Source: Planctomycetaceae bacterium (GTDB lineage Bacteria > Planctomycetota > Planctomycetia > Pirellulales > Pirellulaceae). Taken from it: a DNA stretch of 64,000 nt. Location of the stretch: positions 1 to 64,000 of the forward strand of contig PBSM01000059.1 in the NCBI GenBank assembly GCA_002726245.1, read 5' to 3'. Every line of letters starts with the position of its first letter. Positions within the stretch are counted from its first letter, which is position 1. A program made the position numbers and the translations under genes. Of the stretch, positions 31,711-64,000 are shown piece after piece. The notes under the pieces were generated by a model that saw only the letters and a program-made list of their open reading frames with translations, had not been told where the DNA came from and did not search any database.

Positions 31711-32160
31711 CAGTCCCGTAGGGACGACAGGTGATAGCCTGGGGCGCGAGCCCCAGGAACCGTTACGCTCCCCAAGCCCAAAGCTCCGAAGGCCCTCCGG
31801 GGCTTACCGCCCTGACTTAGCTGATCCTGGAACTGACGCCCTTGTTGTTTTGCATAAGTCTGCCGGCCGGATTCGCCCCGAAGGGGCTGCGACATGTCAG
31901 GCCAGGGCAGAGCGCAGCGCCGCCCTGGATTGGAAGGCGATGAACGCGAGAGCCCTGAAAGGGCAAAACAAATGGGGCGGCGTCCAACTAGCATGTTGTT
32001 TCGCCCTTTCAGGGCTTGCGAACATGGTGTTCGTCTACCCAGGGTGGCGCTGCGCTCTGCCCTGGCCTGGCGTGTTCCTGACCCTTCGGGCCGACTTGTG
32101 TACAACAACAAGGGCTTACGTCCCAGGCTATTACATGCCGCCGCTCGGCGGCTATCGGCG
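31711..32160. repeat. Composite intergenic element, copy 1
   Basis: Fills the whole gap between two operon genes. Reading +, the modules are: a GTCCCGTAGGGAC-type end, hairpin CCTGGGGCGCGAGCCCCAGG, a degenerate CTCCGGGG-type module, a 278-bp near-palindromic core (31838-32115), and GCCGCCGCTCGGCGGC. The outer modules are in the opposite orientation to copies 2 and 3, while the core has the same orientation as in copy 2. It begins 2 bases upstream of the GTG of the cyclase-like gene and ends about 14 bases from the DUF4175 stop. Confidence 0.85.
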
Positions 32161-38705: not shown

Positions 38706-38827
38706 GTAGCCATCACGCTCCGCGTGATGAAAGCGGACGTAAAATCGACTTCACCCTATCAAAGCCGTTTGTTGCATTGAACGTTGTTCGCCGCGCCGCG
38801 TTTCATCACGCGGAGCGTGATGGCTAC
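38706..38827. repeat. Perfect 27-bp inverted repeat with self-complementary arms
   Basis: Arms 38706-38732 and 38801-38827 are exact complements; the spacer is 68 bases. Each arm itself folds (CATCACGCTCCGCGTGATG), so the DNA or RNA can form either one long stem or two short hairpins. The right arm's last bases encode the stop codon of the BatA-like gene (38824-38826). Confidence 0.85.
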
Positions 38828-40968
38828 ATTGCCTTCGCCCTCCCGAAGCTCCAGGCCAAGACGGTTTCAATGACTAGCAACACGATCATGCAAGTTAGCA
38901 TCGAGCGAAACAAAGACACCGGATTCTCGGAAGCTTCTCGAACCACAACGGACTCATCGCTCGCGAACTCGGCAAGTAATTCGCGATCGATGGCTACTAG
39001 GTCGCTCTCCTTCGTATCGAGATTCGCGGCAAACCGTTCACTACGATTCGTCGTTGCCTGCGCGGCTCGATAGACGCCGCTTTGAGTTGTCTCGGCGAGA
39101 CTCCAGCCAGTTTGGTTGATTTCGTCCGGCCGAATCTCGATGCCATCGGGACACTGCAGCGAGAAGTCATCTTCCGCCTCGTCAGCGAGAAAGCGAGATG
39201 CGAGTCCTTCGCCGACAATAATGTTGCGACGGTCCTGCATCCCCTTGGTCGCAAAATGCACAAGTTCGTGGACCAGCGGCGGGAAGCTCGGCCAAGCAGG
39301 CAGGGCGTTCCACGGTGTTGTGCCTTCGTCGGACGTGTTGACCGATTCCGGCGATAACGCCGTTGAGACAACAACGACTCGGCCGCGCCCAAACGTCGAA
39401 GCAACAATCGCCGGTTCATTGTTGCCGAATCGAAGTGCGACCTCCGCTTCCTCGGCTAATTTGTCGAACTGCCAATAGCTCCACACTGGGACCGTCAACA
39501 AACCTGCTCGCTGGTGGCCGCGGAACGGCTTGACAAGCGGATGCTCATATCCGTCAGCAACAAAGTAACGCGGCTCGCCAGTCGTAACGCTTTTGAGCAT
39601 AAGCGGGAGTAGCGGCCTGTCGTCAGCCGCACTCAACTGGTCGTTGTACGAGTTTGCATTGACAATATCTCCCAACGCGACAACAAGTCCACCACCTGAT
39701 GCGACATAGTCTCGCAACACCGTTGCTTCCGTCGGCCCAAGTCGCGCGACGTTACACATGAAAACACAGTCGTACGCGTGAAGATCCTTTTCGAGCAACG
39801 CGTATTCGGAAACGACTTGCACTTGTCGCGGCATCGCGGTTTCGTCCGAAGGATTCAGGGCCAACGCGACATAAGCGGCCGCGTTAAGCTTGCCTTCGAT
39901 ACATAGAACGCGAATTGTTTCGCGCACGGGCACGATCAGCCAACGTGAATCATCGACGCTCAACCCGTCGGAGGACAGCCGGGCCACCATCTCTCGATCG
40001 CCAGGCACGTCAATCTGCTGGTTGAACGAAACGCCTGCACGAGCACTCGCGGCGACATTGACGTGCTTCTCACCAACCTTCCGTTCATCGACGAATAACT
40101 CGATGCGTTTCTGGTTCTCGTTCGCCGCGCCAGCATTCTCGATCTCAACGTGGATCGCGAACGCTTCGCCGCCGACGACCGCGCGGCCGTCCGTTTCGAT
40201 ACGAGTCACCGCGAGATTGTTCGCTTTAACGCTGCCGGTGTGCAGGAACTCTAACGTGGCAAGGTTGTTCAAGTCATTCAGTTGTTGGCGGCACTCCGGA
40301 GTTGTGGCTGCCTGCCAAGTCGTACGACCGAGGTCGGTTAAGAACTCGACGCGTCGGTCCAAAAAGCGAGATTGTGATTCCGCGACCGCGTTCAACAAGT
40401 TCGCGACTTCGTGCAACGTCGGTGACAAGTCCGCGCCCGCGTGAGACAGCTCCAACTTGTCGATCTCATCGACTATGGCAGCATGATTGGCGGATGGCTG
40501 CGCAACGACCACGCTTGGCGGTTCGGATAGCGTCACCAGTGCAAATGCATCACCTGGCTTGGCACGGCGCACACTGTCCGTAGCGAGTTGCGTCGCATGC
40601 TCGAAACGGCTCCGTCCCTTTTCCTGAAAGCCCATGGAGTAGGAAGTGTCGATCACAAGCACGGTAAAGCGAGGAGGTTCGTCCGTCGTCGTGGTGCCGA
40701 TCGGCCAGCCAGATAGCATCGGCTCGGCTAACGCGATTGCCAGCAGCACTAAGACGAGCACGCGGATGGCGAGTAAGAGCATCTGCTCGACGGTAAGCCG
40801 GCGTTGATGTTTGCGGATCGCGGCGAGAAGGAACTGCGTTGCCGCCCACGCTTCGTCTTGATATCGCCTGCGGCTCCAGAGATGAATCGCAACCGGAATC
40901 GCAACCGCAGCCAGCCACGGCAACATCCACGGGCTTGCGAACGACCAAACAGCCAACAGTATCATCAC
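38824..40968 (-). CDS. BatA-like protein with VWA domain
   Basis: 714 residues. The N-terminal BatA motif is clear: SPWMLPWLAAVAIPVAIHLW with two helices, then a VWA domain with TVLVIDTSYSMGFQEKG (DxSxS). A linker of beta strands and a GATase-like domain follow (YDCVFMCNVARLGP, VASGGGLVVALGDI). A final helix (FRSMLTCMIVLLVIETVLAW) completes the protein. BatA-type proteins occur downstream of MoxR/DUF58; the complex they form is not known. The stop lies in the right arm of a palindrome. Confidence 0.85.
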   Translation of the reverse strand: MMILLAVWSFASPWMLPWLAAVAIPVAIHLWSRRRYQDEAWAATQFLLAAIRKHQRRLTVEQMLLLAIRVLVLVLLAIALAEPMLSGWPIGTTTTDEPPRFTVLVIDTSYSMGFQEKGRSRFEHATQLATDSVRRAKPGDAFALVTLSEPPSVVVAQPSANHAAIVDEIDKLELSHAGADLSPTLHEVANLLNAVAESQSRFLDRRVEFLTDLGRTTWQAATTPECRQQLNDLNNLATLEFLHTGSVKANNLAVTRIETDGRAVVGGEAFAIHVEIENAGAANENQKRIELFVDERKVGEKHVNVAASARAGVSFNQQIDVPGDREMVARLSSDGLSVDDSRWLIVPVRETIRVLCIEGKLNAAAYVALALNPSDETAMPRQVQVVSEYALLEKDLHAYDCVFMCNVARLGPTEATVLRDYVASGGGLVVALGDIVNANSYNDQLSAADDRPLLPLMLKSVTTGEPRYFVADGYEHPLVKPFRGHQRAGLLTVPVWSYWQFDKLAEEAEVALRFGNNEPAIVASTFGRGRVVVVSTALSPESVNTSDEGTTPWNALPAWPSFPPLVHELVHFATKGMQDRRNIIVGEGLASRFLADEAEDDFSLQCPDGIEIRPDEINQTGWSLAETTQSGVYRAAQATTNRSERFAANLDTKESDLVAIDRELLAEFASDESVVVREASENPVSLFRSMLTCMIVLLVIETVLAWSFGRAKAM

Positions 40969-41104
40969 TCACCTCGCTTGCGACGCATCGGCCGAACAAT
41001 TGCCGTCGCATACACCACGACCGGGCACTCGCTAGTCGGTTGGTCCAGATCGACCGCGGAGTGTTCGACGACAGTAAGTGATTGGAGACTGCTAACGCGT
41101 TGGT

Positions 41105-41584
41105 CTTCAGCCGCGTAGCGGCGGCAGCTAATCGCCTGGGGCGTAAGCCCTCGTTGTTTTACACAAGTCGGCCGGCCGGATTCGCCCCGAATGGGCCGCG
41201 ACATATCAGCCCAGGGCAGAGCGCAGCGCCGCCCAGGGGTGGAAGGCGATGAACGCGAGAGCCCTGAAAGGGAGAAACAAATGGAGCAGCGTCCAGCGAG
41301 CATGTTGTTTCGCCCTTTCAGGGCTTGCGAACACGGTGTTCGTCTACCCAGGGCGGCGCTGCGCTCTGCCCTGGGCTGGTGTGTTTCTGACCCTTCGGGC
41401 CGACTTGTGTACAACAACAAGGGCGTAAGCCCCAGGTGCGTTGTCGGAACAAAACCAAAGCCCCAGAGGGGCGACACCGAAGAAGCCCAACGTGACAGTG
41501 TCGCCCCTACGGGGCTTAGTGCGTATGGCTGCGACGATTCCTGGGGCTTACGCCCCAGGCTATTACATGTCGTCCGTACCGGAC
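41105..41584. repeat. Composite intergenic element, copy 2 (filled)
   Basis: Fills most of the 680-base gap between the BatA-like and DUF58 genes. Order: a GCGGCGGCAG end, hairpin GGGGCGTAAGCCC interrupted by a 278-bp palindromic core (41147-41424), GCCCCAGAGGGGCGAC with its partner GCCCCTACGGGGC, hairpin CCTGGGGCTTACGCCCCAGG (41540-41559) and GTCCGTACCGGAC. A 12-bp direct repeat GGGCGTAAGCCC flanks the core at 41139-41150 and 41421-41432. The rest of the gap (40969-41104, 41585-41648) shows nothing I recognise. Frames running through it are not genes. Confidence 0.85.
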
Positions 41585-41648
41585 TGGAGAGGTTGTCGAG
41601 GACTATGACTCGTCGATGGCCATCCGATAGGCTACTCATTCCGCAACA

Positions 41649-42572
41649 TCACCTCGACTGCCTGGTCATGGAGGTTCGACTCGTCAGGAACGCGGCCAGA
41701 GCGACATCGAGTGGCTGCTCGGTGGTGAGCAATCGATAGTCGATCTCGTTGTCTAAGCAACCGCGTTTGATTTGCGCGAGGAAGCGATCGACTTCGGCTC
41801 GATAGCCCGAACGGATGGAATGAGGGTCGGCCGCAATGTCGGCGGCTCCCTCCATGCCTCGAAAACGCGTTGGCACATCGAATGGTAGTTGCAGTTCGGC
41901 CGGATCGAGGAGTTGCAAGACGGCGACATCGTGTTGGCGATGTCGAAGGTGCCGCAAGCCGGACAGGACGCTCCCTGGCTCGTCGAAGAGATCGCTGATA
42001 ATCAAGACGATGCCGCGTTTCGTCATCTTCTGTGACAGCTCTCGGAACACATTACCGACCGAGGTCTTGTCGCGCGGCGATGCGTTCTCCATGACCGACA
42101 GCAAACTGGCGAGATGGGATGCGTTGCTGCTCGGCGAGACGGTGTCGCGAACTTCCCAATGAAACGTCGCGAGCCCAACGGCATCCTGGCGTTGAAGCAC
42201 GAGCCAAGCCAGCGATGCAGCGATGCATTGCGCGTATTCCAGCTTCGACATCGCGGAATTCGGGCCGCGATAGGACATGCTCTCGCTGACATCCAGCAGG
42301 AGATAGCAAATCAGATTTGTTTCGTCTTCGTACTGCTTCAAGTAGTACTTGTCGGTCCGCCCGAAGACCTTCCAATCGAGATAACGCAAGTCGTCGCCAG
42401 GCGCATACTCGCGGTGCTCGGAGAACTCGACGGAGAACCCGCGATACGGACTGCGATGAGCGCCGGAAATAAAACCTTCGACGATGCGACGAGCCCGCAG
42501 TTGCAATCCTTTGAGCTTAGCCAGCGTCTGCGGATCTAAAGACTTGGGGGAGTTGTCCACGCCCGTCTTCAT
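41649..42572 (-). CDS. DUF58 domain protein
   Basis: 307 residues. The DUF58 hallmark lies at residues 45-75 (FSEHREYAPGDDLRYLDWKV), followed by LLLDVSESMSYRGPNSAMSKL, a VWA-like DxSxS motif, and KRGIVLIISDLFDEPGSVLSG. No membrane helix is seen, so it is probably cytosolic, unlike the other VWA proteins here. DUF58 proteins act with MoxR AAA ATPases. It starts inside the 3' end of moxR (56-base overlap), which points to coupled translation. Confidence 0.9.
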   Translation of the reverse strand: MKTGVDNSPKSLDPQTLAKLKGLQLRARRIVEGFISGAHRSPYRGFSVEFSEHREYAPGDDLRYLDWKVFGRTDKYYLKQYEDETNLICYLLLDVSESMSYRGPNSAMSKLEYAQCIAASLAWLVLQRQDAVGLATFHWEVRDTVSPSSNASHLASLLSVMENASPRDKTSVGNVFRELSQKMTKRGIVLIISDLFDEPGSVLSGLRHLRHRQHDVAVLQLLDPAELQLPFDVPTRFRGMEGAADIAADPHSIRSGYRAEVDRFLAQIKRGCLDNEIDYRLLTTEQPLDVALAAFLTSRTSMTRQSR

Positions 42573-43611
42573 CCTTCACTGTAGGGACCGTATCCAGTAT
42601 TCGACGCACGATGTCGTCGGCCGTGATGCCTTCAGCGTCCGCATTGAAAGTCGTCTTGATCCGATGACGCAGTACAGGCAACGCGACAGCTCGAACATCT
42701 TCTTGGCTGACACAATAGCGACCGTGCAGCGCCGCGCGAGCCTTCGCGCCGAGCACGAGGTACTGACTGGCACGCGGACCCGCACCCCACATGACATACT
42801 CGCGAATGAATTCCGGGCTCTCGTCGGCTCCCGCGCGGGAAAGTCTTGCCAATCGAAGCGCGTATCGAGCAACATGATCGGCGACGGGAACTCTTCGTAC
42901 GATTCGCGTCAGCTCGAAGATGGCGTCGGCATCTAAGGTCGCCTGCACGGACACCTCGACATCATCGGTGGTCCGTCGAACGATCTCCAGCTCTTCATTC
43001 TCGTCAGGGTAATCGACTTGAACACTGAACATGAAGCGATCTAACTGCGCTTCGGGAAGCGGATACGTTCCCTCTTGTTCAATCGGGTTCTGCGTCGCCA
43101 AGACGAAGAACGGCTCGGCGAGTGTGTGTTTCTTACCGCCGGCCGTGACTTGGTGTTCTTGCATCGCTTCCAAGAGCGCGGCCTGAGTCTTCGGCGGTGT
43201 GCGGTTAATCTCATCGGCCAGCACAACATTCGCGAAGACCGGGCCTGGCAGGAAACGGTACCCGCGTTCGCCGGACGTGCGGTCTTCTTGAATGACTTCC
43301 GTCCCCGTGATGTCCGACGGCATCAAGTCAGGCGTGAATTGAATGCGATTAAAAGACAAGGAGAGCGATTCGGCTAACGTACGAATCATCAGTGTCTTCG
43401 CCAACCCAGGCACACCTACTAGCAAACAATGCCCGCGAGCGAACATTGACACGAGCAATTCCTCGAGGACTTGCTCTTGTCCCACAATCACTTTCGATAC
43501 TTCCGCCGCGATCTGCTCGAAAGCCTGATTCAGGTGCCGGATGGATTCAATGTCACCATCAGTTGTCTTGGCGGCCGTGTCAGCGGATTTCGTCGGTGTT
43601 TCTTTGTCCAT
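42517..43611 (-). CDS. MoxR-type AAA+ ATPase
   Basis: 364 residues from the ATG at 43611; a TTG 12 codons upstream is also in frame. AAA+ motifs: Walker A GVPGLAKT, Walker B VVLADEINRTPPKTQAALLE, sensor 1 LATQNPIEQEGTYPLPEAQL, and arginine-finger region LDRFMF. MoxR ATPases serve as chaperones for the VWA proteins of the same operon (family knowledge). The start overlaps the end of the PQQ-repeat gene, and the 3' end overlaps DUF58, so the three are very likely one transcript. Confidence 0.93.
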   Translation of the reverse strand: MDKETPTKSADTAAKTTDGDIESIRHLNQAFEQIAAEVSKVIVGQEQVLEELLVSMFARGHCLLVGVPGLAKTLMIRTLAESLSLSFNRIQFTPDLMPSDITGTEVIQEDRTSGERGYRFLPGPVFANVVLADEINRTPPKTQAALLEAMQEHQVTAGGKKHTLAEPFFVLATQNPIEQEGTYPLPEAQLDRFMFSVQVDYPDENEELEIVRRTTDDVEVSVQATLDADAIFELTRIVRRVPVADHVARYALRLARLSRAGADESPEFIREYVMWGAGPRASQYLVLGAKARAALHGRYCVSQEDVRAVALPVLRHRIKTTFNADAEGITADDIVRRILDTVPTVKDEDGRGQLPQVFRSADAG

Positions 43612-45895
43612 ATCGGTCGAATACGAAGAGTTTATCGGCGGCTGCAATAACTAAGACGTTCCTGGCGACAACGAGGTTTCCCCCGGTCGCGCCGCGTGGC
43701 GTTAGTTTTATCTCGCGAACGAAGTGTGGCTCGACGCCAAGCTCTGTTCTAACCGTTCGTTGCCCAAAGACAAATATCGAGTTTCGCGTCGGCCAGTATA
43801 CATTGTCGCCAACCAAGACGCCGCGTCCATGACCACGCGGAGATGGCCGAGCGTGGCCAGGCGTCGTTCGGCGGGGAGGTGGAAACTGACCAACGATTCG
43901 CCCGGTATAGACATCTAGCCAATACAAGTAGTCACCGCTGACGATCAAATTGTTTCCGCCCACACCGAGGAGGTGAATTGCATCGGCGGCTTGCTCCGGC
44001 AACGAAGTCCAAATGACATGCCCGGTGTTGGCATCCAGTGCGAAAAGACGGTTGCAGTCGCAAGGGGCTGCGATCACGAGCCCGCGATAAGCGAGGCAAG
44101 GTGTCAGATCGCGAAACACATGTTGATCATTGCGATCGGGGTTTTCGTTCTCTGGCGAAATGCGAGGATACTCGCAAAGCCAACGCACCCGTCCGTCGCT
44201 TGCGCGTAATGCAGCAATCACTCCAAGATGTGTGTTACAGAAGATCGTATCTTCACTCCAGGTTAACAGCGTCTGCGCGGGATAAGGCTGACGCCCCTCA
44301 CCAAGTGTTCGCCCAGAGCAAATCTCCTGGCTCCACAGAAGATCTCCGTACAACTCGTCGAAGCAGGCCACGTGGATCTCGGAATGGACGGTGTCCTGCC
44401 GGCGAAGCGTCACGAACAAACGGTGATTCGCCACGAGGGGCACACCGTCAAAAGCCCATTCCGGCCCCCAACGTTCTCGATCGAGTGTCCGGTCAAGGCT
44501 GAGTTTGCCTTGCGAAACTAAGTCAAGGCCAACGATGCGAGATTCTCGATTGTCCGCGAAGTCCGCGCTGAGCCTTGCGAACACGCGTGAGTCAGTTGCT
44601 GACAAACTGAATCGACGCACAGACTGGTTCCTCTGCTCCGATTCTTCGGCGGAGACATTCGCATCGGTGTGACCGAAAAGCAACGTACCGTTATGCAAGT
44701 CGTACGACGCGATCGCTCCTTGTTCGTTGCCGGTTTGTACAATCAATTGCTTGCCAACGACGATCGGATGGTAACTCAGTAAGGCATCGATCGGCTCTGC
44801 AACTCGCTGGCCTTCGCCACTGAAGTGTTCGCCGTCGGCAGAACGGCGCGGTAACATCGCCTTCCAACGCGGTGATTCGCCAAGAGTCGGCTCGTCCGTT
44901 TCATCCGTGTAACGGTCGGCGATCCGCTGCCGCGTTGGCCCGCCTCCTAGCGTCAGCCAGTCCGTATCCGAAGGCGTCTCCGGCCACGAGTCACTCGCCG
45001 CAAGCAGTTCCTCCAAAGTCTCAACATACTTGCCGTCGCGGCCAGCTAGTCGCCCACGAGCATTCGCGTCGAGTCGGCGCAGCAGCTCCAACTCCATACG
45101 CGCTCTAACTGTATTCCCCTCGATAATCGAAACAAGCACAAGTCGCGCGATGACTAGCGACGCTTCGTATTGAGAATCTGGATAGACCAACCAACTGGGC
45201 AAGCCAGCAGGGTTCTTCAGTCTCGGAAACGCGGCCTGCCATTGCTCCTCCTTCTGCAGCTTGCGGCTCACTAGCCAGATCGGCCAGCCGTTCCATCGAT
45301 CGTCTTCACCGACCAGCGACGAGAAGCGAGCCGCTCGATGAATCGCTTCATAGTTCCGGCGCGCAGCGGTCCAATTCCCCCGCTCGACTTCCAAGTCTCC
45401 CAATCGCAGCAGTACATCGTCGGTTGTGCTTGCAACAAAGAATCGCTCCGCGATGCCGGTGAGCGCCGCCGCGTCCAACTTTGCTTCGGCTTCGCGTTTC
45501 GCGCGCTGTACTCCGGCATCGACGGTCCGCCGATAATAAACAAGCGATTCCGGTGCCGTTTTGGCCAAGCGAGCAAGCTGCATCTGGCAATATTCGGCCA
45601 ACGGCACGTAGCGTTGAAACCCGTCGGCTCGCCGCGGGCCGACACGCATCATGCTGTCATCGTGCTCCTCCATCACTCCACGAAGAATCTCCGCGGCATC
45701 TTGCCACTGTTCTGCTTCGAGAAGTGCATCCGCGCGCTGTAGATGCGCGAGAACGGAGCCTGAAGCAATCGCTAACGCAACATTTGATGGTTGACGGGCG
45801 TCGGTTGCCGATTGGGCTTGGCAACGAAGGGCGACTGAATCGACAAGTAGAGCCGCCAGACCAAGGAGACTTATGCGTCGCATCAAGTCCAGCAT
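43580..45895 (-). CDS. Secreted PQQ-repeat beta-propeller protein with TPR-like region
   Basis: 771 residues from the ATG at 45895 (AAGGA six bases upstream). A signal peptide is followed by a helical, TPR-like segment (about 50-190, e.g. RLGDLEVERGNWTAARRNYE). The C-terminal half has PQQ-type propeller blades (GAIASYDLHNGTLLFG, VIAALRASDGRVRWLCEYP, LFALDANTGHVIWTSLP, YLYWLDVYTGRIVGQF). It lacks dehydrogenase motifs, so PQQ binding is not implied; a BamB-like scaffold is a better guess. The gene starts the MoxR operon. Confidence 0.85.
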   Translation of the reverse strand: MLDLMRRISLLGLAALLVDSVALRCQAQSATDARQPSNVALAIASGSVLAHLQRADALLEAEQWQDAAEILRGVMEEHDDSMMRVGPRRADGFQRYVPLAEYCQMQLARLAKTAPESLVYYRRTVDAGVQRAKREAEAKLDAAALTGIAERFFVASTTDDVLLRLGDLEVERGNWTAARRNYEAIHRAARFSSLVGEDDRWNGWPIWLVSRKLQKEEQWQAAFPRLKNPAGLPSWLVYPDSQYEASLVIARLVLVSIIEGNTVRARMELELLRRLDANARGRLAGRDGKYVETLEELLAASDSWPETPSDTDWLTLGGGPTRQRIADRYTDETDEPTLGESPRWKAMLPRRSADGEHFSGEGQRVAEPIDALLSYHPIVVGKQLIVQTGNEQGAIASYDLHNGTLLFGHTDANVSAEESEQRNQSVRRFSLSATDSRVFARLSADFADNRESRIVGLDLVSQGKLSLDRTLDRERWGPEWAFDGVPLVANHRLFVTLRRQDTVHSEIHVACFDELYGDLLWSQEICSGRTLGEGRQPYPAQTLLTWSEDTIFCNTHLGVIAALRASDGRVRWLCEYPRISPENENPDRNDQHVFRDLTPCLAYRGLVIAAPCDCNRLFALDANTGHVIWTSLPEQAADAIHLLGVGGNNLIVSGDYLYWLDVYTGRIVGQFPPPRRTTPGHARPSPRGHGRGVLVGDNVYWPTRNSIFVFGQRTVRTELGVEPHFVREIKLTPRGATGGNLVVARNVLVIAAADKLFVFDRYGQRNTDEIR

Positions 45896-58601: not shown

Positions 58602-58800
58602 TTCAGCCACGGAGCGGCGGCAGATAATAGCCTGGGGCGTAAGCCCCAGGTAGGTGAGGAACTACAGCCGAAGCCCCGAAGGGGCGACATAGATGATTGT
58701 GGGCTGCGGGCCATAGCGCCCCTCCGGGGCTTTGGTTGTGGTTCTGACACACGTTCCTGGGGCTCACGCCCCAGGCTACTGTGTGTTGTCCCTACGGGAC
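58602..58800. repeat. Composite intergenic element, copy 3 (empty)
   Basis: Modules as in copy 2 but without the 278-bp core: GCGGCGGCAG end, hairpin CCTGGGGCGTAAGCCCCAGG (58631-58650), GCCCCGAAGGGGC and GCGCCCCTCCGGGGC, hairpin CCTGGGGCTCACGCCCCAGG (58756-58775), and CCCTACGGGAC. Lies between the two separate cupredoxin genes. The flanks 58551-58601 and 58801-58858 show nothing recognisable. Confidence 0.85.
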
Positions 58801-58858
58801 TCAAAAAAAGTGCGGGTAACGACACGAGTTGTAACCTGTCCTACGACGTTCACGCCGT

Positions 58859-59946: not shown

Positions 59947-62900
59947 TTACTCTTGTTTCGGGGCAAACTTAACGATACCAATGTCTGTTGTCTTTCCGTC
60001 TTCGATCGGGAAGGCAACTCGCCCTCGATTCCATTTAGTGCGTTTACCATTCAGATCGATGTCAGCGACATAACCTTCGGCCTCCTGCCAGAATTGAAAG
60101 GTCCAATTCCCAACCGGAATGTTCTTGATCTCGACCATTCCATCGCCGTCACTGGCCGCGGCATAAGGATGATCCTTCACCAGCAACCAGGATTTCATCC
60201 ACGTGTGAATGTTGCAGGTAGTCCCGGCGGCGCGTAATTCGGATTCAGGTAACTGTTGGGGAACTTCTCCACCCGCCGGAATCAAGATGTTCTGCCCCGG
60301 ATTGACGGTGGTCGTATAGTTTGTATTGTGGCCAACGCTGTCGCTGTTCTTGAGAATCAGCGTCTGTGGCGTCCACAGAATGGCGACGTGCGGTTCGAAG
60401 CGGCATCCGTTATTGTCAAGCACGACTCGATCACGCGCTTTCGACAGATACGACTCGTGAATCGGGATTTGCTCGACGTTACTTCGCCGCTTGTCGAGAT
60501 ACACGATCACGTTCGCGATACCACCGTTCTCGCGATTCACGACGACCGACTCGTTGACGAGTTTGAAGTTTCCGCAAAACTGAGCGTCCTTGTCCGGTGT
60601 GACTGGTGACGGGGATGGAGGATCGCCGTCATAGACGAATCGAACCTTAAGGTGCCCCCAACCTTCGGCCTCGGGAAGGTTCTTTAGTAAGTCAGGCAAG
60701 TCTGTCTTCGCCGACACTTTGGCTGGCGGGGTTGGTGCAGGTGTGGGCTTCGGAGCTGGCGTCGGCGTGCGTCGCACGGGAGAAGGCACGACGGCGGAAG
60801 CTGGAACTTCGTCGCTCGGCGCGCTGACCATCGGCGCGATCGGGCTGCGCTGTTTGGCGTATGCATCGAAATTCAGCAGCAAATCGACCAACGCATCGAC
60901 GGTTTCCGTGGTCGTGCCGTGATAGAGGACTGGCTGGTTCGGAACAGGTTGGAATACGGTCGCTGTCGCATCATACGGTACGTTGACCGGCATACTTGTG
61001 TAGGGCAGCAACGATTTCGGGTTGGCGACCCACGTCCGCATGAACTCTGGACGCATGCGACTGCTGACTTCAGCCAAGTTCGGTGCCTTAGCGCGATCCG
61101 CGCCTTTCGGATTAAAGTCGCCGACGATGTGGCACTTCACACACGTGGTCGTAACGATGTTCATGGCGTCGCCAAAGCGACTGCTTTCCACACCTGCCGA
61201 AGCGAGCCTCTGTTGATAATCGGCTTCAGCCCCGGCAAGATAACCTTTCTGCTGGCGCTCACTCGACTCGTACGGGTACTGAGCGTTGTCGATTGCCGCG
61301 AAGTAGTTCACCAGCTTTGTCGCTTCCGCCGGCGACATATTGAATCGCGGCATGCGGAGAACTACCGCCGGGCGAATCGGATACGGATTCAAGAGGAAAT
61401 CATGCAGCCAATTGGTTTGCACTTTTTGGCCTTCTCCGATCAAAGGCGGCGGGAGCCAGCCCCAGGCTTCCGTGCCTTTTGCGGCAGGAAGTACAACCTT
61501 CTCTCGCTGTACCACATGTTGCAGCAAGTACTTCGCTAAGAATCCGCCGCGACTGGATCTCCGCTGTTTCACTTGCGACGACTTGACGGCCAGCGGCAGT
61601 ACGCCAACTTCGAAGACGTTGCCTCCGATGGCTACCGGTGACCACAGATCAAACGGGTATTCGAGGTTATCCGTGTCGTAGTTCTCGTCGTCTTCCAGCG
61701 GATCACCAAAGTCGTCATTCGCTTTCGGCACACCTGACTCTTCGAGCGTCGGCATGCCCTTCACGATCGTATGCAGCAAGCCGCTTACATCACTGTTCAT
61801 CGACTCCGACAAAACATCCGGCGGGAAGTGTGTCTTCACGAAGGGGTAGACCGAGGTGGCTGGCTGCTTGCGAAGTGCGTCGGGAGCATGTGCCAGACTC
61901 CACGATTCGGCCTCCAGCATATGGCAGCCGCCGCAGTTGTATTTATCAAGCACTTGCCGACCAGCGATAATCGCTGCTGATCGCTCATCAGGCTGGTAAA
62001 TGTACTTGGCAGACGGCGGATCCGCGACCAGCCCGAGCACAAAGGTGATCACCGCTTCGCGCTCAGCGGCACTGAACGGGAACTGTGGCATGCGAAGCCG
62101 TTCGTTGTACTTTTTGTTCTCTGTCTTGTGGTAGTCGTAGCTACGCGGCTCGCGAAGTTTTTGATAGATGAAGCCGGCTCGATGCCCACCATCGAGCGAA
62201 TGGCGATAGAAGTGGTGCATTTCCTCGGTTTCGCCATCGTCGTCGTCGTCGTGCTCGTCCTGAGCGTGTTCGGCCTCATCGAGATAATGCGCGATGTGTT
62301 CGAATGCGAGCTTACTGGGATCCTTCCGTCCCCAATCGGCTAACGCCGTTCCAATCGGCTTCGCATCCTCGAAGCCGGGAATGTCGTGACAGCCGTAGCA
62401 ACCGTACTTCGAAATCGCTTTGCGCCCAAGGTAAAGCAATTTGGCATCGACCGTAAGCGAGCCGTCAGCAACAGCGTTCTCTGTGTCTGTCAACAGTTCG
62501 ACTTCCGCCCCCTTCAACTCATCGCGCAACGCCGCCGGAATACCTTCCTCGCCGTAACGCATAGCCGCGGCCTCGGCGAAGGCATCTTTGAGGTTCTCAA
62601 GCACTAGTTCGTCGAGCGATTCGAGATTCGCTTCCTGGGGGCTTGGCGTCCACTCTTTCGTGCTGGTGAGCAGGAAGCTGACGATATCGGCCGCTGGATC
62701 AATGCGATACTGCACTCGATCCTCTTCCGTGACGGGGCCGGTAAACAGTGTCGCCGGCGGCGCGATCGGATCGAGGAACGACTCGGGCATCACAGTTCGC
62801 GCGTGATATCGACTGGGTGCCTTGATCCAACTGTACAGCCACTTCTGGCCATTCTCGTGCTTCAGCTTGTCGCCAATCGCAGAGAGATCCGGGCCTTGAA

Positions 62901-64000
62901 CGATCTCATCCTCACCGCGATATCGGACCGTGCCGGGAAACGCATCATGCGCGTGGCAAGCCAAACATCCTCGCTCTTGCAGCAAGCCCTTTCCGCGTTC
63001 AGTTGCCCCAAGAGCAACGTCGGCTGGCGGTTCGTTCAGATCGGTCGGTGGCTCAAGATACTCAAATGCTTGAGAACGACTCTGGAGATACGTCGTGATG
63101 CCAAGCACTTCCAGCGGCTCGTAGTCCTCGACAACGTCACCATGGCCCTTGCCAGGCAGGTGATTCCACATGCCGAAGGACCGCGGCATCCGAGTGTTCG
63201 GGCGGAACCGCTTCGGATTCTCGATCCAATCCGACATGAACTTGGAGTCGAGCTTATGAGCCGCGTATCGCAGGCTGGGACCGGGCTTGCGGATCACGCC
63301 GGCGTTTTCGACGTCCTTGAACAGAGGGACCAGATTCGCATGCGTGCGCTTTGACAGAGCCGGCTGTTCGGATTCACCGTCCGCGGTCAACGCCTCGTAA
63401 ATACGATGCCGCACTGCGTCGCGCTCGGGATGCTCGGCCAACTCGCTGGTCCAGGCTTGCACGTCTGCCGACAAGCTACCGAAGCCGGGATCGGCCTGCA
63501 GTTGCAACGCGGCGGCGAAGAAGTTCGGCTCGAGCCGCATATCCGGCCCGATCCGCTCGCCCCGGTCGTAGCCGGTGATTTCATGACAGCCGTAGCAGCC
63601 GTACTTGCGAATCAGGTTATAACCACGCACAACGGTTGGGGCGGGTGGTTCCGGGAACTTCTCACTCGGCTCCAGCTCGGTCACCGCGTGATGACACTTC
63701 AAGCACGCCGACTCGGCGAACCGCGCCGGATACATCGGCATGGCCCAGTGATGGTTGTCAAACCAACCATGCGATTTCGCCCACTCTTGCCGCTCGCGCT
63801 CGGTGTTCGGCGTGTGCGACGCCCACTTGAAATCTGTCGCACTCCCCTGTCCTTCGTGGCAGATGGTGCACGCGAAGTCAGACATCTTGTGTGGGCTGAG
63901 CGAACCGACGAACAGATCAAGTCGCGGGTGAGACGTATAAGGGCCAGGCAATCCACGCCGGATCGTCAACGTCAGCGGCTGCTTGGCTTCCGCTGCATCA
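59947..64000 (-). CDS. Multihaem cytochrome c fused to amicyanin-like domain (5' partial)
   Basis: The frame is open to the right edge of the window, so the N-terminus is missing. About 1350 residues are visible. Seven CxxCH haem motifs: CTICH, CLKCH, CYGCH, CLACH, CYGCH, CGGCH, CVKCH. A Pro/Thr/Ala-rich linker (PTPAPKPTPAPTPP) leads to a C-terminal cupredoxin domain of about 245 residues with NSDSVGHNTNY and CNIHTWM, the same fold as the neighbouring gene. Periplasmic or membrane-linked electron carrier, likely bridging a quinol-oxidising complex to the oxidase. The missing part may hold membrane helices. Confidence 0.88.
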   Translation of the reverse strand, partial: DAAEAKQPLTLTIRRGLPGPYTSHPRLDLFVGSLSPHKMSDFACTICHEGQGSATDFKWASHTPNTERERQEWAKSHGWFDNHHWAMPMYPARFAESACLKCHHAVTELEPSEKFPEPPAPTVVRGYNLIRKYGCYGCHEITGYDRGERIGPDMRLEPNFFAAALQLQADPGFGSLSADVQAWTSELAEHPERDAVRHRIYEALTADGESEQPALSKRTHANLVPLFKDVENAGVIRKPGPSLRYAAHKLDSKFMSDWIENPKRFRPNTRMPRSFGMWNHLPGKGHGDVVEDYEPLEVLGITTYLQSRSQAFEYLEPPTDLNEPPADVALGATERGKGLLQERGCLACHAHDAFPGTVRYRGEDEIVQGPDLSAIGDKLKHENGQKWLYSWIKAPSRYHARTVMPESFLDPIAPPATLFTGPVTEEDRVQYRIDPAADIVSFLLTSTKEWTPSPQEANLESLDELVLENLKDAFAEAAAMRYGEEGIPAALRDELKGAEVELLTDTENAVADGSLTVDAKLLYLGRKAISKYGCYGCHDIPGFEDAKPIGTALADWGRKDPSKLAFEHIAHYLDEAEHAQDEHDDDDDGETEEMHHFYRHSLDGGHRAGFIYQKLREPRSYDYHKTENKKYNERLRMPQFPFSAAEREAVITFVLGLVADPPSAKYIYQPDERSAAIIAGRQVLDKYNCGGCHMLEAESWSLAHAPDALRKQPATSVYPFVKTHFPPDVLSESMNSDVSGLLHTIVKGMPTLEESGVPKANDDFGDPLEDDENYDTDNLEYPFDLWSPVAIGGNVFEVGVLPLAVKSSQVKQRRSSRGGFLAKYLLQHVVQREKVVLPAAKGTEAWGWLPPPLIGEGQKVQTNWLHDFLLNPYPIRPAVVLRMPRFNMSPAEATKLVNYFAAIDNAQYPYESSERQQKGYLAGAEADYQQRLASAGVESSRFGDAMNIVTTTCVKCHIVGDFNPKGADRAKAPNLAEVSSRMRPEFMRTWVANPKSLLPYTSMPVNVPYDATATVFQPVPNQPVLYHGTTTETVDALVDLLLNFDAYAKQRSPIAPMVSAPSDEVPASAVVPSPVRRTPTPAPKPTPAPTPPAKVSAKTDLPDLLKNLPEAEGWGHLKVRFVYDGDPPSPSPVTPDKDAQFCGNFKLVNESVVVNRENGGIANVIVYLDKRRSNVEQIPIHESYLSKARDRVVLDNNGCRFEPHVAILWTPQTLILKNSDSVGHNTNYTTTVNPGQNILIPAGGEVPQQLPESELRAAGTTCNIHTWMKSWLLVKDHPYAAASDGDGMVEIKNIPVGNWTFQFWQEAEGYVADIDLNGKRTKWNRGRVAFPIEDGKTTDIGIVKFAPKQE

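Follow-up and report, generated by a model that had tools for sequence, protein, structure and literature searches.

The enzymes of the IS200/IS605 family act on single-stranded DNA, in which they read the hairpins at the element ends together with a short guide and cut and join one strand (PMC6006769, PMC8266576). The REPIN and BIME units of Pseudomonas fluorescens and E. coli consist of inverted palindromic ends around a spacer (PMC3116915, PMC6006769), and compensatory changes have already been reported in REPIN arms (PMC3116915). The PATEs of Haloquadratum walsbyi are gene-less derivatives of IS200/IS605-type elements with near-terminal palindromes, some of which arise by deletion of the core and some of which are themselves targets of other small repeats (PMC3119063). 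Among the Y1 transposases, TnpA subclass 1.2 is defined by the motifs DH[IV]H, WQ and Y---Q--HH in a protein of ~148 aa, has mostly been described from Cyanobacteria and Bacteroidetes and without REP sequences or typical terminal structures, and the REPtron-like loci of class 3 carry atypical high-copy hairpins around Y1 genes in Planctomycetes and Acidobacteria (PMC6006769).

Here, we analyzed a window of 64,000 nt, by which we mean the whole stretch of DNA under study, and the genome to which it belongs. The repeated core in this window is very probably a non-autonomous, REPIN-like mobile DNA element of an IS200-like Y1 transposase. It resembles the REPINs and BIMEs in that palindromic ends are inverted around a spacer, in that the unit is gene-less and present in many intergenic copies, in that its ends are common to a Y1 transposase gene in the same genome, and in that its arms carry compensatory changes. 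It differs from them in size (~220 nt) and in having three hairpins per end rather than one, in its foot, which is CAG (observed as ATCAG, ACCAG or TAG) instead of GT[AG]G, and in its partner, which is IS200-like whereas the partner of REPINs is a RAYT of class 2. The element thus appears to work like a REPIN, yet has neither the GT[AG]G foot nor the RAYT partner by which REPINs are defined. Strict REPIN/RAYT membership was rejected since the foot and the protein motifs do not fit.

The window contains two 278-nt copies in the same orientation, which align without gaps over 300 nt at 90% identity. The long fold-back in these copies is real, with predicted energies of -206.9 kcal/mol in copy 1 and -218.5 kcal/mol in copy 2, corresponding to z = -15 and z = -20, respectively, relative to dinucleotide shuffles. 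The initial annotation stated that the core occurs twice, which holds for the window but not for the genome, where we found 11 near-full copies. It also treated the core as one unit, which mixes a 224-nt canonical element with outer arms that are present in some copies only. The 224-nt centre contains, in order, hairpin A, the foot CAG, hairpins B and C, a spacer and the mirrored hairpins C', B' and A'; comparison with the copies of relatives limited the common region to this centre. The features are as follows.

31838-32115, plus strand: copy 1 as first annotated, canonical element plus outer arms
31838-31871, plus strand: left outer arm, TTGTTGTTTTGCATAAGTC..., missing from the transposase locus on contig C262 and from the copies of relatives
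31872-32095, plus strand: canonical non-autonomous element of copy 1 (A-B-C-spacer-C'-B'-A'), with the limits common to relatives without outer arms
31875-31887, plus strand: hairpin A, GCCCCGAAGGGGC, from alignment with the arms that flank the transposase
31888-31900, plus strand: linker and foot, TGCGACATGTCAG, usual form CAACATATCAG
31896, plus strand: site of the second compensatory change, paired with 32071; G-C in copy 1 and A-T in all ten others
31901-31929, plus strand: hairpin B, usual form CCCAGGGC...GCCCTGGG; 31901 is the changed base first annotated
31952-31964, plus strand: hairpin C, GCCCTGAAAGGGC, followed by GAAACA
31965-32002, plus strand: spacer, the place of the transposase gene in the autonomous relative on contig C262
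32003-32015, plus strand: hairpin C'
32038-32066, plus strand: hairpin B'; 32066 is the partner of 31901
32080-32092, plus strand: hairpin A'
32096-32115, plus strand: right outer arm, ...TGTACAACAACAAGGGC
41147-41424, plus strand: copy 2 as first annotated
41181-41404, plus strand: canonical element of copy 2

The genome searched is 7.6 Mb in size, consists of 356 contigs and is 89% complete. All copies for which the flanks could be judged are intergenic, and their orientation relative to the flanking genes is mixed, with both directions seen. Copy 1 is flanked by a gene for a protein with a toroid domain like that of squalene-hopene cyclases and by a gene for a 1336-aa protein without a Pfam match. 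Copy 2 is located between the DUF58 gene and the BatA/vWA gene of a MoxR-DUF58-BatA block (window 38827-43647); all of these genes are on the minus strand. Two further copies, G000:C213:44394-44680 and C244:25187-25476, have flanks that are alike far past the element, indicating that a larger segment was duplicated.

Seven matches to Y1_Tnp were identified in this genome. One of these, on contig C262, is a gene for a 150-aa Y1 (HUH) transposase that is located between inverted copies of the same ends and exactly in the place of the spacer, with the surrounding arms in the order A-B-C / C'-B'-A'. An identical arrangement was seen in the genomes G016 and G023. We then searched 84,980 genomes by protein alignment only, a procedure that is blind to the DNA ends, and obtained 18 loci with 56-81% identity from Planctomycetota, Verrucomicrobiota, Hydrogenedentota and Sumerlaeota. 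Core-like arms were present on both sides of the gene at 17 of these loci and on one side at the remaining locus, L125. Three of the 18 are the G016 and G023 loci that had already been seen, and 15 are therefore independent of the discovery set. As a control, we examined 28 Y1 loci from other lineages in these genomes and detected no arms within 500 nt of any of them, as compared to 4 of 4 loci of the clade. In a phylogenetic tree, the arm-bearing transposases formed one side of a branch with support values of 88/81, the branch that also includes the sister sequence L153 had values of 100/98, and this clade spans phyla. L153 itself (60% identity) has no inverted repeats around the gene, which counts against our explanation.

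The C262 protein matched PF01797 (Y1_Tnp) with an E-value of 5.5e-22, and its HUH motif DHVH and tyrosine motif YIENQ align with those of the solved IS200-type transposases 2fyx and 2xm3. It scored 53.8 bits against the NCBIfam IS200 equivalog NF033573, just under the cut-off of 55, and 28.3 bits against the model for REP-associated tyrosine transposases, NF047646, far under the cut-off of 80. Both scores count against our explanation, and the second is the reason for the term REPIN-like rather than REPIN in the strict sense. With EDHVH, WQ and YIENQEEHH in 150 aa, the protein resembles subclass 1.2 in its length (~150 aa), in the motifs DHVH, WQ and YxxxQxxHH and in its low copy number (PMC6006769). 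Unlike in that subclass, the ends in the C262 clade are strongly structured and dispersed, and the clade occurs in PVC-type and neighbouring phyla, so that structured dispersed ends are now assigned to a type of transposase previously described without them. Membership of class 3 was rejected because its foot (CnGA) and its protein features (NHVH, YV[VI]xEQ, a length of 178) do not fit the C262 ends and protein. The genome G042 contains six Y1_Tnp copies with equal scores (C1, for example at 2675460-2675816), as is typical of an active IS200, whereas the transposase of the core is single-copy.

That the core shares its ends with the autonomous C262 element is expected of a gene-less derivative of the MITE or PATE kind. 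The PATEs differ in being archaeal and in having single near-terminal palindromes, and long arm-to-arm symmetry is not among the features reported in the available part of their description (PMC3119063). In gene-less copies from Verrucomicrobiota, the spacer resembles the leader of the transposase gene, including GGGAG (0 of 1000 shuffles), which suggests that these copies are internal deletions of the transposase element, as reported for some PATEs (PMC3119063). The likeness is weak in the genome studied here, with p-values of 0.006-0.28 depending on the copy and the strand. Genome G009 contains many orphan copies and, at one copy, a truncated relic of a C262-type transposase.

On the mechanism that we propose, the element consists of two inverted three-hairpin ends (A, foot CAG, B, C) joined via a short spacer, and its autonomous partner would be the C262 gene, encoding a Y1 enzyme (HUH, one tyrosine), between the same two ends. 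The hairpins would fold when the region becomes single-stranded, for example during replication, and the transposase would recognize the local hairpins and the foot, and then cut and join single-stranded DNA. The transposase gene, or gene-less copies in trans, could thereby be excised and reinserted. We infer the hairpin recognition, the single-stranded route and the movement of gene-less copies by a C262-type transposase from what is published on this enzyme family (PMC6006769, PMC8266576). The double changes in copy 1 would stem from pairing between the arms, either through selection acting on the complete hairpin or because one arm was copied from the other. A subset of the copies in this genome bears additional outer arms and is nested within a hairpin of Acido-Lenti-1, a second element that follows the design of the first.

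The compensatory change first annotated is present as claimed, the pair 31901:32066 being G-C in copy 1 and the equivalent pair 41210:41375 being C-G in copy 2. Another such change had been overlooked 5 nt away, where the pair 31896:32071 is G-C in copy 1 and A-T in copy 2. The ten remaining copies in the genome uniformly carry C-G and A-T at the equivalent positions. These are the ancestral pairs, and the two changes therefore originated in copy 1, to which they are private. Over 100 pairs, copy 1 differs from the consensus by five changes in the left arm and five in the right, two of which coincide and complement each other, with a chance probability of ~0.002 for copy 1 and ~0.02 across 11 copies. 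None of the ~80 arm changes in the eight other close copies was compensated, and the arms otherwise drift freely. At 31901, the change disrupts the local pair at the base of hairpin B but preserves the pair between the arms. Taken together with the neighbouring change, this suggests that the arms pair with, or are copied from, each other, and the double change in copy 1 is compatible with templating of one arm by the other or with a DNA hairpin of full length. A single, simple gene-conversion tract covering both changes is unlikely since the T-G pair at 31897:32070, which lies between them, was not homogenized.

The intergenic positions of the copies would also suit a DNA structure kept by the host, for instance for binding of gyrase, IHF or nucleoid proteins as proposed for enterobacterial BIMEs, with the link to the transposase as a mere trace of origin, and host roles have been assigned to REP elements elsewhere (PMC3733652). 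We consider this the least probable of the alternatives, given that there are only ~11 full copies in 7.6 Mb, that the copies drift freely outside the hairpins and that the distribution among genomes is patchy (copies in 6 of 60 relatives, the nearest ones compared belonging to other genera).

We also examined covariation in the hairpins and in the long fold. For the local hairpins, arms were taken one per locus (two for L127), copy 1 was added, and the alignment was made independently of structure; pairs in the local hairpins and in the fold-back were assessed by direct counting. In hairpins A, B and C, 97.7% of the cells were paired and six pairs were changed on both sides. The covariation score was 0.133, as compared to 0.063 in shuffled alignments (0 of 500) and to at most 0.036 when the partners were slid. 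The local hairpins thus covary strongly across genomes, and hence it is the folded form of the DNA ends that is conserved. The long arm-to-arm fold covaried marginally, with six double-change pairs among the 11 copies of this genome versus 2.7 in shuffles (11 of 500), and five such pairs remained when the partner was slid by -3. Covariation is thus strong in the local hairpins and marginal in the long fold to which the initial annotation had pointed; given also the probabilities for copy 1 and the uncompensated changes in the other copies, the signal first noticed is real but weak.

Alternatively, the core could encode a structured regulatory or small RNA, or a terminator or processing element, in which the compensatory change would be the result of selection on the RNA. 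Such selection would tolerate G-U on the strand of the RNA only. Single changes that weaken a pair gave G-U in 23 cases and A-C in 17 (p = 0.43), and since G-U was not favoured over A-C, nothing points to an RNA. The predicted fold is very stable and the sequence next to the core is matched by an sRNA model of Rfam, Acido-Lenti-1, both of which would suit an RNA, but the core itself had no match in the Rfam scan, the orientation relative to the flanking genes is mixed, these hairpins are found on both sides of a transposase gene in four phyla and the Acido-Lenti-1 matches flank Y1 genes as well. An RNA was accordingly rejected as the main explanation, and we regard it as highly improbable. The initial proposal that selection or gene conversion acts on a folded form thus holds in broad terms, and of the two forms proposed, RNA or DNA, the DNA form fits better. 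Since the three-hairpin ends match those around the HUH transposase of the same genome, the paired changes are probably a consequence of DNA hairpins that serve in transposition, and not of a new RNA.

Acido-Lenti-1 (RF01687; PMC2864571) has four matches in the window and 148 in the genome, many of which form inverted pairs ~150 nt apart. Like the core, these pairs consist of a hairpin A, a TAG foot, a hairpin B with the sequence CCTGGGGC...GCCCCAGG, a hairpin C and a spacer, followed by the mirror image, and the Rfam family corresponds to the hairpin B, foot and hairpin A end of a second A-B-C element that hosts the core. It differs from the core in its sequence family and in its foot, and in being filed as an sRNA. 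The following features were annotated.

31712-31757, minus strand: match to Acido-Lenti-1 (RF01687), forming an end of the second REPIN-like element, which hosts copy 1
32108-32153, plus strand: interrupted Acido-Lenti-1 end to the right of copy 1, 31.4 bits, under the gathering score
41104-41150, minus strand: left part of the Acido-Lenti-1 hairpin interrupted by copy 2
41540-41585, plus strand: Acido-Lenti-1 end that closes the host element of copy 2
58605-58650, minus strand, and 58756-58801, plus strand: inverted pair of Acido-Lenti-1 with a third hairpin inside

Most of the composite copies of the core are nested in hairpin B of an Acido-Lenti-1 element. Matches to Acido-Lenti-1 were found beside Y1 genes at nine loci (L044, L050, L082, L087/L158, L157, L159, L163, L165 and L166), and RF01687 is probably the end of a transposase-linked element, and hence transposon DNA, rather than an sRNA gene.

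The outer arms (TTGTTGTTTTACACAAGTC) add 20-34 nt per side around about nine copies, some of which have lost one side. They are absent from copy c294 of this genome, from the copies of relatives and from all transposase loci. When searched alone in this genome, they yielded one solo arm (L132), which also adjoins an Acido-Lenti-1 hairpin, and no mover of the arms. Where a copy has retained both sides, ~12 nt of the form GGGC-loop-GCCC are duplicated in its flanks, and the loops match or nearly match within a copy and differ between copies (GTAA/GTAA, TAAC/CAAC, GTCA/GTCA), as expected from separate insertions. A Y1 transposase makes no target duplication. The outer arms and the adjoining 12-nt duplications are thus not explained by such an enzyme and count against our preferred explanation.

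An ordinary MITE of the DDE type would account for these features, with the outer arms, which are imperfect inverted repeats, as terminal inverted repeats, the 12-nt flanks as target duplications, and the inner hairpins as captured sequence. However, a DDE transposase with such ends was not found, c294, the copies of relatives and the transposase loci all lack the arms, and this scenario describes at most the outer shell of nine composite copies. As an explanation of the core, we hold it to be about as improbable as an RNA. At one end of copy c292, the outer arm is present in tandem, ~70 nt apart (G000:C292:14963-15055).

Beyond the C262 clade, other Y1 loci carry their own A-foot-B-C sets, which supports the putative existence of a class with a fixed three-hairpin grammar. 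We consider it reasonably likely that the IS200-class transposases resembling subclass 1.2 in Planctomycetota and neighbouring phyla have a REPIN-like class of elements with the grammar A-NAG-B-C-spacer-mirror and one set of hairpins per lineage, that Acido-Lenti-1 represents one of these sets instead of an RNA gene, and that the families insert into each other's hairpins. What appeared to be a new structured RNA or cruciform becomes, on the preferred reading as a mobile element, a testable pair of transposase and substrate in four phyla. It also suggests a re-examination of RF01687, a curated RNA family, as transposon DNA, such that annotation pipelines could stop calling sRNAs there, and it is a warning for covariation-based RNA discovery that the hairpins of mobile DNA covary too. 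Elsewhere in the window, a 71-nt direct repeat (72%) at 62346-62416 and 63543-63613 was observed inside a long reading frame on the minus strand.
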